Shown here: positions 15,521 to 22,446 of the stretch, piece by piece
Layout of the letters: each line of letters opens with the position of its first letter
Numbering within the stretch: the first letter of the stretch is position 1
IMG/VR virus record: IMGVR_UViG_3300013014_000134
Location: 1 to 23,360 of that record
Source: a virus
Length of the DNA: 23,360 nt
Reading direction: 5' to 3' (one strand)
Program-made: the position numbers and the translations under genes
The notes under the pieces: model-generated
Seen by the model: only the letters and a program-made list of their open reading frames with translations
Database searches by the model: none
What the model was told of the DNA's origin: nothing

Positions 15521-16057
15521 TTGATACTTGGACTCGACGTTTCGACAAGCTCGACTGGCTGGGCTGTTCTCGATGAGGCTGGAAATCTCGTTGAGATGGG
15601 AAGTTTCCAGCTCGATAAGCAGGAGGGGTTGTTCAACAAGGCGGACATCGTCAGCCGGGGATTGCTGAACCTGCGATTGAAATATCCTGAGATAAAGAGG
15701 GTCTCGATAGAGGAACCTCTCCAGGGGTTTCGTCGCGGACTCAGCTCCGCGTCAACTCTGCTTACCCTGGGACGATTCAACGGCATGGTCTCCTGGCAAT
15801 CATTCGTCGTCTTCGGCTTCGAGCCGATCTTTTTCAACTCCTCAGCTGCCCGTAAGGGTCTGGGGATCACCCTCAGCAAGGATCGGGATACGAAGGATCA
15901 GATCATGGAGTGGGTCGAGGTTGTGACGGGTCAGCTCCTTGCTCGGAGGACTGTCAAGGCCGGTAAGAAGAAGGGGCAGGTTGTCTACGACAAGGGTGTG
16001 AACGATGCTGCTGACGCTTATGTGATGGCTCGAGCGGCGTACTTGTTAAAACCGTAG
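15521..16057 (+). CDS. RuvC-like Holliday junction resolvase
   Basis: A 178-residue RNase H-fold nuclease that would cut four-way or branched DNA. Visible catalytic acids are D6 in the first strand (LGLDVSTSSTGWAV), E64/E65 (VSIEEP), and D162/D165 in the last helix (GVNDAADAYVMA), matching the RuvC layout of Asp, Glu, and paired Asp. The length matches bacterial RuvC (about 170 residues). In phage T4 the same job, resolving branched replication intermediates before packaging, is done by the unrelated endonuclease VII (gp49); a RuvC-type enzyme would replace it here (inference). The start is TTG at 15521, required because the D6 strand begins almost immediately; GGTGA at 15512-15516 is the probable ribosome site. 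It follows the LamG gene by four bases and precedes the primase, so it opens the DNA-processing block. Confidence 0.85.
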   Translation: MILGLDVSTSSTGWAVLDEAGNLVEMGSFQLDKQEGLFNKADIVSRGLLNLRLKYPEIKRVSIEEPLQGFRRGLSSASTLLTLGRFNGMVSWQSFVVFGFEPIFFNSSAARKGLGITLSKDRDTKDQIMEWVEVVTGQLLARRTVKAGKKKGQVVYDKGVNDAADAYVMARAAYLLKP

Positions 16058-16058
16058 T

Positions 16059-16081
16059 TCACAAGTAAAATGTACTTGTGA
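16059..16081 (+). promoter_or_regulatory. Perfect 9-bp hairpin enclosing the primase start codon
   Basis: TCACAAGTA (16059-16067) and TACTTGTGA (16073-16081) are exact reverse complements with a five-base loop AAATG. The 3' arm contains the GTG start of the primase (16078-16080), and no ribosome site of normal strength is visible upstream. The repeat sits between the resolvase stop (16055-16057) and the primase start. It could mask initiation, bind a protein as an operator, or be both. Confidence 0.6.
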
Positions 16082-17034
16082 TAGACACCCGCGAAAGAAT
16101 CGAAATACTGACACGAGCTCTCGGCGCTTGCTCTCTCGACAGGAAGGGCATCAACGCGGCGTTCCGCTGTCCGATGTGCCAGCATTCGAAGAAGCAGAAG
16201 CTTGTTGTCAAGCTCGACACCGGACAGTACCACTGCTGGGTCTGCGATGCCCGTGGTGCCTCGATCTCAAAGCTGCTGAGGAAGTCATCACCTGATGTGG
16301 CTTCGAGGTGGGACGCCATAGCTGGTTCACACCAGCGAAGGTTCCTGGATGAGGTTGTCGAGAAGCCGCGCGTTGATATCCCTCCGGGTTTCAAGCTGCT
16401 CGCTGAGCTGCAGGATTCAAGGGATCCTGACGTTCGCGGATGCCTCGAGTACGTTAGAAATCGTGGGCTCGGGATACGTGAGATGTGGTACTTCAGGCTC
16501 GGATGCGTCAGGCGGGGTCGACTCTCTCGCCGGATTATCATGCCTTCATTCGACTCAGAGGGAAAGCTCAACTACTGGACCGCACGCGCTATCGATAGTG
16601 ATGTCGTCGGAAAGTACGTGAATCCCTCGACCCCAAGGGGAGAGTTTATCTTCAACGAGCTCAACATAGACTGGCGTCAGGAGCTCACGCTTGTCGAAGG
16701 ACCTTTCGACCTGACAAAGTGCGACAGCAACGCCACGGCGATACTCGGGTCCAACATGTCGAGAAAGTCAGCACTCTTTCAGGCGATCGCCAGAAATAGA
16801 ACACCCGTCATCCTCGCACTTGATAGTGACATGCCTGAAAAGCAGCACAAATGGGCAGCTGCTCTATCTGAGTTTGACGTGCCCGTCAAGATGCTCAACC
16901 TTGGTACAGCCAAGGACGTGGGCGAGATGACACGTGAGGAATTTTTAGCTGCGAAAGCGTCAGCACGAAACTGGGACAAGTTTCAGGGTATTATTAACCT
17001 TTCTAGAATTATGAGAAGCGGGAGCATCCTTTGA
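16078..17034 (+). CDS. DNA primase (zinc finger plus TOPRIM, DnaG/T4 gp61 type)
   Basis: A 318-residue primase that would lay RNA primers for lagging-strand synthesis. The N-terminal zinc ribbon shows C31-x2-C34 (CPMC) and C53-x2-C56 (CWVC), the CHC2-type DNA-binding finger. The TOPRIM catalytic core follows, with E207 in LTLVEGPFD and D249/D251 in ILALDSDMP; D280 in GTAKDVGEM may be a further metal ligand. No helicase domain is fused, so a separate DnaB-like helicase must be encoded elsewhere. The size is close to T4 gp61 (342 residues), which uses a partner helicase. The GTG start at 16078 is the only start that fits, since the ATG at 16070 runs straight into a stop. It lies in a perfect hairpin. 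The stop overlaps the next TTG start. Confidence 0.88.
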   Translation: MIDTRERIEILTRALGACSLDRKGINAAFRCPMCQHSKKQKLVVKLDTGQYHCWVCDARGASISKLLRKSSPDVASRWDAIAGSHQRRFLDEVVEKPRVDIPPGFKLLAELQDSRDPDVRGCLEYVRNRGLGIREMWYFRLGCVRRGRLSRRIIMPSFDSEGKLNYWTARAIDSDVVGKYVNPSTPRGEFIFNELNIDWRQELTLVEGPFDLTKCDSNATAILGSNMSRKSALFQAIARNRTPVILALDSDMPEKQHKWAAALSEFDVPVKMLNLGTAKDVGEMTREEFLAAKASARNWDKFQGIINLSRIMRSGSIL

Positions 17035-20000
17035 TCAAGATCGCACACCTGTCCGACATCCACTGGCGTGGACTTCAACGTCATGATGAGTACACCGAAG
17101 TTTTCGAGGACTTCTTCAAGAAGCTGGACGAGCTTCAACCGAACATGATCGTTGTGGGTGGAGACATTGTCCACTCGAAGACGCAGGGCATCACTCCTGA
17201 GCTTGTCGATCGCCTCCGCTGGTGGTTTCAGAAGCTGGCCAACTGGCCTACCGTTGTTATCCTTGGAAATCATGACGGTCTTATCCACAACAAGTCGCGT
17301 CTCGATGCGATCTCACCGATTGTTGCCGCTCTTGACCACCACAACATCCACTTTCTCAAGAATTCTGGCAACTACGAGCTTGATGGTATCAACTTCGCCA
17401 ACTTCTCATGCTTCGACGAGGAGAGCTGGAACAAGTGCAGTCCAAGTAGCGATCCGAATTTGATCAACATCGCGCTCTACCACGGGGCCGTGGGCGGATC
17501 ACTGCTCGATACTGGAATGCCTATCGACGGTGAGGTGACGGTTGACATGTTCAGACCATACGATTTCTCACTTCTCGGTGATATTCACCGTCGGCAGTTC
17601 CTTGACGGTGACACTCGAATCGCCTACCCAGGTTCGACTGTCCAACAGAACTACGGTGAGGAGATCGAGAAAGGGTTCCTCTACTGGCAGATTAAGAATC
17701 GTGACGAGTACCGCGTCAACTTTGTCAAGCTCAAGAACCCCAAGCCTTTCCACTCGATCGAGTGGCAGGGAGATGTCTCTTCCACCGTAGAAGTCTGTGA
17801 GAAGCTGCCGATGGGCTCGCGCTTCAGGATTCTCAATGATGAGAACGTGGCGATTTCCGAATCTCGTCAGCTGGCTGGTGAGCTGAAGAAGAAACGGGGC
17901 GCGTCCGAGGTAGTTTGGAAGTTCGTGGGTGAGCAATCGAAGGAGGACATGCGAGCCGGTGCAACCTCTCTTTCACGCGAGAATCTAAGAGATCCCGCAA
18001 CCATAAGAGGGCTGTTCAAGAGCTACGCTGAGTCCAAAGGGCTCGAGGGTGAGGCACTCACGAAGCTTGACTCGACAGTCTCGAAGCTCATCGACTCTCT
18101 GCCTGAAGATGAAAGGCTCGGAAACGTCAAGTGGTCGATCAAACGTCTGCGCTGGGATAACACCTACGCTTACGGAAAGGAGAACGAGATCGATTTCGAG
18201 AGTATGAACGGGATCACTGGGATCTTCGGTCGAAACGCTCAGGGAAAGTCCTCCATCCCTGGCACCATCATGTACTCTCTATTCAACACGACTGATCGTG
18301 GTCCGATCAAGAACCTTCATATCATCAACACTCGAAAGGATTACTGCAAGGCCTCAGTGGAGTTTCAAGCGGGTAATGACATCTACCTGTCGGAGCGACA
18401 GTCGGTTAAGCACCAGACGAAAGCTGGGATCCAGCATGCAGTCACCCATCTCAACCTGTTCAGGCTCGATCAGGACGGAAATCCAATCGAGGATATCTCA
18501 GGCGAGCAGCGCAAGGATTCTGACAAGATGCTCCGGTCGCTCATCGGCACATCCGAAGATTTCCTGCTGACTTCCTTCGCTGCTCAGGGCGAGATGAATG
18601 CTTTCCTCAAGGAGCGTGCCACGGCCCGAAAGAACATTCTATCGAAGTTCCTGAACCTTCAAGTTTTCGACTCTTTGAATCTGCTGGCCAAGGAGAGCGC
18701 AAGCTCGATCAAGTCAGAGCTCAGGAGAGTTCCTGCCATCAACATCAGGTCAGCTATCGATGAGAAGCGGAAGGAGGAGACAGCTCTTCATGCCGAGGCG
18801 GAAGAGCTTGAATCCGAACGTGTAACTTTCGACTCTCATGTTAAGAAGCTTCGGGCTATACTTGAGCGTGAGTCACCGGGATCTTCCCACACTCTGGATG
18901 ATATCAAGAGCTATGAAGCTGATGTGATCAGCTTGGAAAAGAAGACACAGCAGAACGAAAAGGATCTGGCTGCGGCCATTCAGGAGCGTGATGATCTGAA
19001 GGCAAAGCTCGACAAGATAGAGAACGTTGTCTCAGGTTTTGACGTTGAAGCTCTTCGCCGTGACGTTGAGCGGATGGAACGGATTTCCAGCAAGATAAGC
19101 GAAGTGGAGGCTCGGTCCAGGACTGAGGCTGAGGGTATCAAGCTTCTTGAGAGATCTGTCAAGAAGCTGGGGGAGGTTCCCTGCGGTAACACTTTCCCGA
19201 CCTGTAAGTATATCAAGGACTCCCACAAGGATCGTGAGCTCCTGCCGCAGAAGCAGAAAGCTTTTGATGACATCGCATCGACCCTAGAGGAGCTGCGTCA
19301 ATCATTCGATGGCGGAGCGCTTAAGGACACCAAGGATCGGCTCGAGAAAGTGACGGGTCTGCAGTCCAAGCTCCCAGGGGTGAGGACTTCGTTACAGGCT
19401 CATGAGAGTCGCGCAGAGAGTTTGAAGTCTCTCGGAGATTCTCATAAGAAAGATCTCGAGAGGGTAAGAAAGGCCCTGCAGGAGCTCCGCGCGGCAACCT
19501 CCGTCTCAGCTCTTGAGGAGGTCAAGAAGATGCAGCAGGAGATCGAGGGGGAGGAGCGCAAGATCCAGGAGGTGACCAGGAAGATGCTCAAGGACAATCA
19601 ACGTCTGGGAGCTATCGGTTCTGAGATCTCTCGACTCGAGCAAGACGTTGAGAGAATAGAGAAGCTGCAAGCTGATTGGAAAGTCTACGAGACAATACTT
19701 GCTGCAACTGGTAAGGACGGGATCCCACTACAAATCATCGCATCTCAGCTTCCCAGGATCAACAGCGAGATCTCGAAGGTCTTGACTGGTGTTGTCAACT
19801 TTAATGTCGAGCTTGTTGCAAATGAGGAGGACGGGGACCTTGAGATCTTCATCGATTACGGTGATTCGAAGCGTCCGATAGAGCTCTCCTCAGGCATGGA
19901 GAAGATGATCTCATCGTTGGCCATCAGGACCGCGCTGATTGAGGTCTCTGCAATTCCCAAGCCCGATCTTTTCATCATTGATGAGGGCTTCGGAGCCCTT

Positions 20001-20162
20001 GACGACACCAACCTTGAGGCCTGCGCTCGGCTGCTCACATCTCTCAAACGTAATTTCAAGAACATGCTCGTGATCTCCCACGTTGATAGCATCAAGGACA
20101 TTGTTGATAATGTCATAGAGATCTCGCATGATGGCATCGACGCTAACGTGAGGTACTTTTGA
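17031..20162 (+). CDS. SbcD-SbcC (Mre11-Rad50) single-chain nuclease/ATPase fusion
   Basis: A 1043-residue protein joining both subunits of the recombination exonuclease that T4 encodes separately as gp47 and gp46. The N-terminal third is an Mre11/SbcD phosphodiesterase: D9-I-H11, GGD45, GN80-H81-D82, H151, and GDIH186. The C-terminal part is Rad50/SbcC: Walker A GRNAQGKSS at 400-408, Q-loop region near Q519, long charged coiled-coil arms (about 571-715 and 730-885), a hook with C718 and C725, signature LSSGMEK at 952-958, Walker B LFIIDE at 980-985, D-loop GALDD, and H1017. It would resect double-strand ends for recombination-dependent replication. TTG overlaps the primase stop (TTGA) with GGGAG upstream; its own stop overlaps the next TTG. 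The short hook and covalent fusion are unusual. Confidence 0.9.
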   Translation: MIKIAHLSDIHWRGLQRHDEYTEVFEDFFKKLDELQPNMIVVGGDIVHSKTQGITPELVDRLRWWFQKLANWPTVVILGNHDGLIHNKSRLDAISPIVAALDHHNIHFLKNSGNYELDGINFANFSCFDEESWNKCSPSSDPNLINIALYHGAVGGSLLDTGMPIDGEVTVDMFRPYDFSLLGDIHRRQFLDGDTRIAYPGSTVQQNYGEEIEKGFLYWQIKNRDEYRVNFVKLKNPKPFHSIEWQGDVSSTVEVCEKLPMGSRFRILNDENVAISESRQLAGELKKKRGASEVVWKFVGEQSKEDMRAGATSLSRENLRDPATIRGLFKSYAESKGLEGEALTKLDSTVSKLIDSLPEDERLGNVKWSIKRLRWDNTYAYGKENEIDFESMNGITGIFGRNAQGKSSIPGTIMYSLFNTTDRGPIKNLHIINTRKDYCKASVEFQAGNDIYLSERQSVKHQTKAGIQHAVTHLNLFRLDQDGNPIEDISGEQRKDSDKMLRSLIGTSEDFLLTSFAAQGEMNAFLKERATARKNILSKFLNLQVFDSLNLLAKESASSIKSELRRVPAINIRSAIDEKRKEETALHAEAEELESERVTFDSHVKKLRAILERESPGSSHTLDDIKSYEADVISLEKKTQQNEKDLAAAIQERDDLKAKLDKIENVVSGFDVEALRRDVERMERISSKISEVEARSRTEAEGIKLLERSVKKLGEVPCGNTFPTCKYIKDSHKDRELLPQKQKAFDDIASTLEELRQSFDGGALKDTKDRLEKVTGLQSKLPGVRTSLQAHESRAESLKSLGDSHKKDLERVRKALQELRAATSVSALEEVKKMQQEIEGEERKIQEVTRKMLKDNQRLGAIGSEISRLEQDVERIEKLQADWKVYETILAATGKDGIPLQIIASQLPRINSEISKVLTGVVNFNVELVANEEDGDLEIFIDYGDSKRPIELSSGMEKMISSLAIRTALIEVSAIPKPDLFIIDEGFGALDDTNLEACARLLTSLKRNFKNMLVISHVDSIKDIVDNVIEISHDGIDANVRYF

Positions 20163-20455: not shown

Positions 20456-20827
20456 ATGCACCTAACTGACGAGCACCTAAGGGCTCTGGGTCAAATCACG
20501 CAGAAGGGATGGGGCGTTTCTTCCATGCCTAATTCCGTTACATGCTCAATGCACAACGACAGCATCACGCTAAAATACTTGACCGTCGTCCATTTTGCAG
20601 CTGAGAACGCGATGCGTGATCAAGTTGCCAGAATAAACCACGAGTCGATCCAAATCCTGACTAAGTGCGTGGATGACATCAAGAAGAGCTTCAAGGAAGA
20701 GACAGGAGATTCTCTTCGGCTCAAGGAGACTTCCAACAAGGACTCCTTGGAGATGATCGTCGCGACCAATAATTCTCCTCGTCGTGTTGCTTACTATCGT
20801 CGTCAGGTGACGCTACAGGTAGTGTGA
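20456..20827 (+). CDS. Conserved-looking small protein upstream of terminase (123 aa, unknown)
   Basis: Not recognised with confidence. The visible pattern is an N-terminal helix (LTDEHLRALGQITQKG), two strands (SVTCSMHND and TLKYLTVVHF), a long helix (about 49-84, NAMRDQVARINHESIQIL onward), then two C-terminal strands (SLEMIVATN and RVAYYRRQVTLQV). No helix-turn-helix is visible. ATG at 20456 has GGAG at 20444-20447. Its stop overlaps the terminase ATG (TGATG), the position often taken by a small terminase, yet T4 gp16-type features are not obvious. It could be a packaging cofactor or a small structural protein. Confidence 0.55.
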   Translation: MHLTDEHLRALGQITQKGWGVSSMPNSVTCSMHNDSITLKYLTVVHFAAENAMRDQVARINHESIQILTKCVDDIKKSFKEETGDSLRLKETSNKDSLEMIVATNNSPRRVAYYRRQVTLQVV

Positions 20828-22446
20828 TGGCGGTCCTGTCAAAAGACCGCCAGGTGGCCGAGATAATCGCGTGTGGGAAGAATTCGTCGTACTTCATCAA
20901 CAAGTACGTCAAGATTCAGCATCCCACACGTGGCACCGTTCCGTTCACAACATACAAGTTTCAGGATGAGTGTCTCGATAAGTTCGAAGAGCATCGATTC
21001 AACGTCATCCTGAAGTCACGGCAGCTCGGCATCTCAACTCTCGCTGCTGCATACGCGCTCTGGCTCGCGCTGTTCTACAAGGACAAGGCGATCCTGATCA
21101 TCGCCACAAAGCTCGCAGTTGCCCAGAACTTCATCAAGAAGGTGAAGGTCATGCTGCAGAACCTGCCCTCATGGCTCATCATGCCATCGATGAAGTCGGA
21201 CACCAAGCAGGTCGTTGAGTTCAGCAATGGATCCTCGATCAAGGCTATCCCGACGTCAGAGGACGCGGGTCGTTCAGAAGCTCTTACGCTCCTGATCGTT
21301 GACGAGGCTGCATTCATCGGAAACTTCGACGAGCTCTGGACCGGTCTCTACCCCACGCTTTCAACCGGTGGTCGAGCGATTGTTCTCTCAACTCCGAACG
21401 GTGTCGGTGGTCAGTACCACAAGATTTACGCTGAGGCCGAGGGGGGTCATAACGAGTTCAACGCGATCAAGCTCATGTGGGACGTCCATCCCGAGCGTGA
21501 TAGTGTCTGGTTCGAGAATGAATCTAAGAACATGACCCGAAAGCAGGTGGCCCAGGAGCTCCTCTGCGACTTTGCCGCGTCAGGTGACACGTTCCTCGGA
21601 GCGAACGAGCTGGACCAGATAATGTCGATGACGCAAACACCTATCGAAAGGTGGGGTCCAGAGATGGGAGTTTGGGTCTGGAAGTACGCTCTGACCAGCC
21701 ACAAATACATCATCGCTGCTGACGTTGCTCGCGGGGACGGCGCTGACTACTCCGCCTGTCACGTGATAGACATAACCTCAGGAGAGCAAGTCTGCGAGTT
21801 TAAGGGAAAAGTGCCGCCTGACCAGTACGCCGTCCTCCTGAATGAGATCGGCATGAGGTACAACAAGGCTCTACTATGTCCTGAAAACAACAGCTACGGG
21901 TACGCCGTCTGCATGAAGCTGAAGGAACTTGGGTACCCGAACCTATACTACAAGGACAAGAAATACCAGTTCATGGGAGCGTACGCTGGTTCCGAGGATA
22001 TCGCCAACATCGGTTTCACGACTGGCGCCTCCAACAGGACCAAGATGCTCACGAAACTCGAGGAAGTCCTTAGAAACAAGCAGCTTCGTGTTAGATCAAC
22101 GCGACTCTTCGACGAGCTCAAAACTTTTGCTTGGGTCGGTCAGACGCCAAGAGCTATGAAAGGTTACAACGACGACCTTGTCATCTCGCTAGCTATCGCA
22201 ACATGGCTCTACGACTCATCCGAGGATCATTCAAGGCACAGCCACGAGATGAGTAAGGCTATGCTGGCCGCATTTGCTGTCAATCGTAACAGAGACGATA
22301 TGGAACCGGTCGTTCCGCACCCCAGGAATCCCTTCTCGCCCATTATGGTCGAGGCGATACCGTCATCAGGAAAAACAATAAACTCTTCGAATCCATACGC
22401 GCAATTTGGATGGCTAGTAAATGATTTAAGTAGGACGAGAAGATAG
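20827..22446 (+). CDS. terL: Large terminase subunit, DNA-packaging ATPase/nuclease (T4 gp17 type)
   Basis: This motor cuts concatemeric DNA and pumps it into the prohead through the portal. Numbered from the ATG at 20827, the ATPase domain has a deviant Walker A KSRQLGIST at 63-71, where the lysine sits at the start of the loop and not in the usual GK(S/T) place; such loops are known in large terminases. Walker B is LLIVDEAAF (DE at 159-160) and the coupling motif is LSTPNG (188-193). The RNase H-type nuclease carries the expected three acids: D299 (IIAADVARG), E353 (CPENNSYG) and D449/D450 (NDDLVISLAIA). A GTG three bases upstream (20824) is an alternative start; ATG is chosen for codon strength and spacing from AGG at 20817-20819. 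Length 539-540 residues is slightly under T4 gp17 (610). Confidence 0.93.
   Translation: MAVLSKDRQVAEIIACGKNSSYFINKYVKIQHPTRGTVPFTTYKFQDECLDKFEEHRFNVILKSRQLGISTLAAAYALWLALFYKDKAILIIATKLAVAQNFIKKVKVMLQNLPSWLIMPSMKSDTKQVVEFSNGSSIKAIPTSEDAGRSEALTLLIVDEAAFIGNFDELWTGLYPTLSTGGRAIVLSTPNGVGGQYHKIYAEAEGGHNEFNAIKLMWDVHPERDSVWFENESKNMTRKQVAQELLCDFAASGDTFLGANELDQIMSMTQTPIERWGPEMGVWVWKYALTSHKYIIAADVARGDGADYSACHVIDITSGEQVCEFKGKVPPDQYAVLLNEIGMRYNKALLCPENNSYGYAVCMKLKELGYPNLYYKDKKYQFMGAYAGSEDIANIGFTTGASNRTKMLTKLEEVLRNKQLRVRSTRLFDELKTFAWVGQTPRAMKGYNDDLVISLAIATWLYDSSEDHSRHSHEMSKAMLAAFAVNRNRDDMEPVVPHPRNPFSPIMVEAIPSSGKTINSSNPYAQFGWLVNDLSRTRR

Follow-up and report, generated by a model that had tools for sequence, protein, structure and literature searches.

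A single-chain Mre11-Rad50 fusion gene on a tailed-phage contig and its viral relatives

The window, that is the whole stretch of 23,360 nucleotides analyzed here, carries on its plus strand (17031-20162) a genuine fusion gene in which a Mre11/SbcD phosphodiesterase is followed, in a single chain, by a complete Rad50/SbcC ATPase. The phage is an aquatic one. With a probability of roughly 0.88, we consider that the gene product is a one-chain Mre11-Rad50 like Mimivirus R555 and that it would act as the counterpart of T4 gp46/gp47 in recombination-dependent replication. A Mre11-Rad50 fusion is not new: the viral kind was already described in 2011 and the window gene is a further member. It leaves existing knowledge of the Mre11-Rad50 complex unchanged. 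At 23 kb, the window contig covers only a fragment of its phage genome, and the genome-wide context given below is taken from the contigs of relatives.

One open frame with two active sites

The frame is continuous over 1043 amino acids from a TTG start. The sequence GGGAG (17020-17024) lies six bases 5' of this codon, whose last two bases are shared with the stop codon of the primase-like gene before it (TTGA). TTG is likewise the aligned first codon in the closest relative, L001, and in L003-L006. Based on Pfam, residues 2-186 match Metallophos above the family cut-off (E 3.5e-11), and SMC_N, SbcC_Walker_B and AAA_23 match at approximately 370-1033, below their cut-offs. Based on PHROGs, the same chain matches an SbcD-like family over residues 3-355 (E 2.1e-25) and an SbcC-like family over residues 367-1032 (E 2e-51). 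The single frame and these matches bear out the preliminary description of the window, which had proposed a Mre11-Rad50 in one chain, complete with the two active sites. Its statement that T4 and bacteria have a separate gene for each enzyme held for T4 and E. coli.

The phosphodiesterase domain (residues 1-234; 17031..17732, +) is delimited by the Metallophos match and by conservation in 77 aligned fusions. It contains the metal-site residues D9, H11, D45, N80, H81, H151, D184 and H186. All of the residues named at the outset (D9, H11, D45, N80, H81, D82, H151 and H186) are present in the window protein, and the tallied residues of both nuclease and ATPase are invariant in the 77 fusions, except N80 (76/77). 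D184 had been overlooked. It occupies the position of Pyrococcus Mre11 His206 and is invariant in the 77 fusions, as is H48 of the GDxxH motif. Every position of the phosphodiesterase motifs DxH, GD, GNHD, H and GHxH is filled, the last as GDIH, in which one metal-ligand His has become Asp. An invariant Asp in place of a metal-binding His of studied Mre11 would fit a protein that tethers DNA as a structural element, in the manner of SMC proteins, and has an altered or inactive nuclease. We regard such a protein as very unlikely, given that the remaining metal-site residues are all conserved and that Asp serves as a metal ligand elsewhere in the Mre11-type phosphodiesterase fold.

The Rad50 N-lobe (residues 367-560; 18129..18710, +) carries the Walker A motif GRNAQGKSS (18228-18254) and the Q-loop residue Q519. 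The C-lobe (residues 894-1043; 19710..20159, +) carries the signature SSGMEK (19887-19904), the Walker B motif LFIIDE (19968-19985) and the H-loop residue H1017. Both lobes are placed by Pfam, PHROGs, a structure model and conservation. Between them, model helices and conservation define an antiparallel coiled coil (residues 561-893; 18711..19709, +) with a hook-like turn, PCGNTFPTC (approximately 19179-19205; C718 and C725). The complete ABC ATPase that had been described is thus present, split in the model by a long antiparallel coiled coil, and Rad50 heads are among the Foldseek matches of the model to solved structures. A strict CxxC, the canonical form of the Rad50 zinc hook, is absent at the tip of the coiled coil and C-x6-C (CGNTFPTC) stands in its place, with C725 found in 77/77 fusions and C718 in 75/77. 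Both this hook and the Asp at the His206 position are unlike studied Mre11-Rad50 and could change activity. Near the hook, residue 732 is His in 61/77 fusions.

The structure model was made with AlphaFold2 from 54 related sequences (mean pLDDT 84). Because it is a monomer with a pTM of 0.49, we used only its local folds and not the arrangement of its domains. Of the viral proteins, those that match its fold best are Tenacibaculum phage fusions and repair proteins of giant viruses, the latter 969-1389 residues long, which is fusion length.

The stretch between nuclease and ATPase had been read as a Mre11 capping and Rad50-binding tail reduced to a connector, which the model contradicts. Residues 240-298 (17748..17924, +) fold as strand-helix-strand-helix-strand where the capping domain is expected, an assignment based on AlphaFold2 secondary structure and on structural matches to complete Mre11 chains of known structure. 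A linker follows (residues 299-321; 17925..17993, +) in which residues 301-315, with pLDDT below 50, are probably flexible. The modeled helix-loop-helix (residues 322-355; 17994..18095, +), the expected Rad50-binding element of Mre11, agrees in position with that described for Thermotoga Mre11 (PMC3175470). It ends approximately 11 residues ahead of the first Rad50 strand, leaving residues 356-366 (18096..18128, +) as the joint between the Mre11 and Rad50 parts. In Foldseek, solved Mre11 chains of approximately 366-385 residues align over 399-409 model columns (3tho_B, for instance, with 366 residues and 399 columns). The length of the stretch 235-366 ranges from 127 to 147 residues in the 77 fusions. 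As the model and the whole-chain Mre11 matches show every element of the tail, we conclude that the tail is complete and that a reduced connector is unsupported. Based on the model, the window protein would have both the capping domain and the C-terminal helix-loop-helix of Mre11, and is predicted to bind Rad50 through the usual element.

Relatives and integrity of the joint

Eight relatives were recovered when viral contigs were scanned with the protein alone; a scan with an alignment yielded at least 577 confirmed relatives among the 600 candidate stretches listed. The fusion is frequent in IMG/VR viral contigs. It also occurs in isolated phages: Microcystis phage Mel-JY01, Tenacibaculum phages pT24 and PTm1, Chryseobacterium phage MA9V-1 and Sphingomonas phage PAU. 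Complete isolate genomes annotate it as one gene, under plain names. A search of phage genomes, which had been proposed as a way to see how widespread the fusion is, thus returned both many viral contigs and several isolates. The preliminary description had made its case depend on the same fusion not being known from many characterised phages. For occurrence this does not stand (publication in 2011, isolates, IMG/VR); for biochemistry it does, and we found none for any close member of the window fusion. The literature collection searched held no later work on these fusions and no papers on Mel-JY01.

The fusion is an unbroken single frame in 76 of the 78 whole-protein relatives compared from viral contigs. 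The closest relative (L001), 94% identical and on a contig of 171.5 kb, is open across the joint, as are 75 further viral contigs. In every part of the protein, the joint residues 330-390 included, dN is well below dS, with many dS estimates saturated, and this pattern points to purifying selection on the joint. A missed stop or frameshift near 18030-18150, for which a check had been proposed, was not found. Separate genes lie close together in T4, SPO1-like and other phages, and a read error, a lost stop or a faulty assembly could in principle join such a pair. Because 76/78 relatives are unbroken and isolate genomes carry the fusion as one gene, we exclude this origin for the window gene. 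Selection on the joint and its near-constant length also argue against it, and the chance that it applies is negligible.

A scan of the genome_contigs set retrieved six relatives (L118-L123), all in metagenome-assembled bins labelled bacteria or archaea. The surroundings of L118 have a phage gene order, and the fusions in the six bins are therefore probably on phage contigs binned with their hosts. A chromosomal cellular gene was rejected on these observations. In the plasmid search, no fusion covering over 80% of the query was found.

Known fusions and the tree

Yoshida, Claverie and Ogata (2011) described Mimivirus R555 as a Mre11-Rad50 fusion and listed twelve further fusions, from a Bacillus phage, bacteria, plasmids and eukaryotes (PMC3175470). 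The capping and helix-loop-helix regions are mostly kept in these known fusions, and R555 has a GDxxH motif and an Asp replacing Mre11 His206 (PMC3175470). R555 homologues were reported to be abundant in aquatic viral metagenomes, where some may belong to phages; phage-type primases lie on metagenome scaffolds with such homologues, and phages were proposed as a source of Mre11/Rad50 fusions (PMC3175470). The window fusion resembles R555 in having Mre11 N-terminal and Rad50 C-terminal, in keeping the capping and helix-loop-helix regions, and in GDxxH and the Asp for His206. It also adjoins a primase-like gene, and primases occur on the scaffolds with R555 homologues. Unlike R555, a protein of 1351 amino acids from an amoeba virus, it has 1043 amino acids and belongs to a tailed phage. 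This likeness was judged from the published description and from structure matches to related giant viruses. We consider D184 more telling for it than GDxxH, because GDxxH also occurs in some split phage proteins. With phage fusions this frequent, the suggestion made in 2011, that aquatic phages are rich in them, is borne out.

Among the isolates, Mel-JY01 offers a complete genome with a single-chain fusion (WWT39521.1) and a primase-like gene close upstream. Its protein is, however, only 29% identical to the window protein, has another hook cysteine pattern and bears no annotation beyond 'AAA domain containing protein'. The fusions of pT24, PTm1, MA9V-1 and PAU are also single-chain Mre11-Rad50 and fall on the fused side of the tree described below, but they are approximately 1300 amino acids long, form a distant branch, have Gln for H11 in all four and are annotated only as metallo-phosphoesterase. 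T4 gp47 and gp46 are the same two enzymes, encoded in one gene cluster and used in phage recombination. In contrast to the window fusion, they are two genes, separated by approximately 440 bp that hold two small ORFs. T4 has His at the D184 position, a CPTC hook and the signature SEGEK, whereas the window protein has D184, C-x6-C and SSGMEK.

We built a tree of 35 systems from nuclease and ATPase columns. A branch with support 100/98 separates the fused chains, along with three systems in which the break lies within the nuclease, from nine split systems that include T4 and E. coli. Sampling followed similarity to the window protein and the tree lacks a known root, so that a single origin is allowed by it and not proven. 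Of the fused chains, only that of Sphingomonas phage PAU lacks D184, and the signature contains SGM in nearly all of them.

In L101 (5001-8236), L103 (1456-4718) and L115/L117, the fusion is split in two inside the nuclease domain. The first gene encodes approximately 215 residues and stops shortly past the GDIH motif. The second, of approximately 860-870 residues, starts at an ATGA or GTGA overlap and encodes the remainder of the nuclease together with the connector and Rad50. At the site of the break, the unbroken L091 and L092 carry a loop comparable in length and sequence, so that the break probably arose within an inserted loop. At the same position, L010 (5959-10166; LR756508.1, a 484 kb phage) has an ORF of 305 amino acids between the two halves, with a weak match to a TnsA-like endonuclease. 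At gathering thresholds there was no Rfam intron match in the window or in L010, and a self-splicing intron in L010 was rejected, the interruption being this ORF. In nrdA of phage Aeh1, a homing endonuclease splits a phage gene, the products of which still assemble (PMC2988022).

The broken chains stand in two separate places of the tree, and thus require at least two breaks, or one break and one rejoining. Tentatively, and with the odds slightly against it, we suggest that the phage fusions are a distinct, old Mre11-Rad50 branch (D184, C-x6-C hook, SGMEK) whose chain, after fusion, has undergone two or more new breaks within the nuclease domain. Selection would then keep the two enzymes coupled and the position of the break would be movable.

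Gene neighborhood and proposed role

Directly upstream of the fusion is a DNA primase-like gene (16078..17034, +; PHROG DNA primase, E 1.2e-39), which occupies this place in 59 of the 76 loci with room for it. A gene for a RuvC-like Holliday junction resolvase precedes it (15521..16057, +; PHROG, E 4.6e-9); such a gene is upstream of the fusion in 61/69 loci with room. Downstream lies a T4-type terminase large subunit gene (20824..22446, +; Pfam Terminase_6N), as in 72/77 loci with room. The contig of the closest relative has a Gp23-family major capsid gene, and a RecA-family gene is present both there and in Mel-JY01. The term 'T4-like' used at first is therefore supported in part, by the terminase family and the major capsid; unlike in T4, a family-B DNA polymerase was not found on the contig of the closest relative. 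On that contig, G001:C1:29868-30482 has sub-threshold traces of a family-A DNA polymerase only.

By analogy with established Mre11-Rad50 and with T4, two fusion chains would form the usual Mre11(2)Rad50(2) clamp, with the coiled coils meeting at the cysteine hook. The Rad50 heads would close on DNA ends with ATP, and the nuclease domains would trim or nick these ends. As the equivalent of gp46/gp47, the fusion would resect linear phage DNA at its ends and perhaps also break down the DNA of the host. The resected ends would let the phage RecA/UvsX invade, leading to recombination-dependent replication and repair. Dimerization, both activities and the replication role are carried over here from what is established for these systems. 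In T4, gp46/gp47 are needed for the degradation of host DNA as well as for recombination, so that the chain might mainly be a nuclease against host DNA, or act in counter-defence, and not in phage replication. We think this unlikely, given the conserved replication and packaging neighborhood of primase, RuvC and terminase, and prefer a role in recombination-dependent replication.

The two-protein Mre11-Rad50 complex is awkward to study. A phage protein of approximately 1040 residues that holds the two active sites in one chain, and so in a natural ratio of 1:1, offers a convenient model.

Elsewhere in the window, positions 88-2436 encode a tail-fibre-like protein of 782 amino acids, which has glycine-rich, collagen-like stretches and repeats of the unit 'KSVRFGNGxP'.
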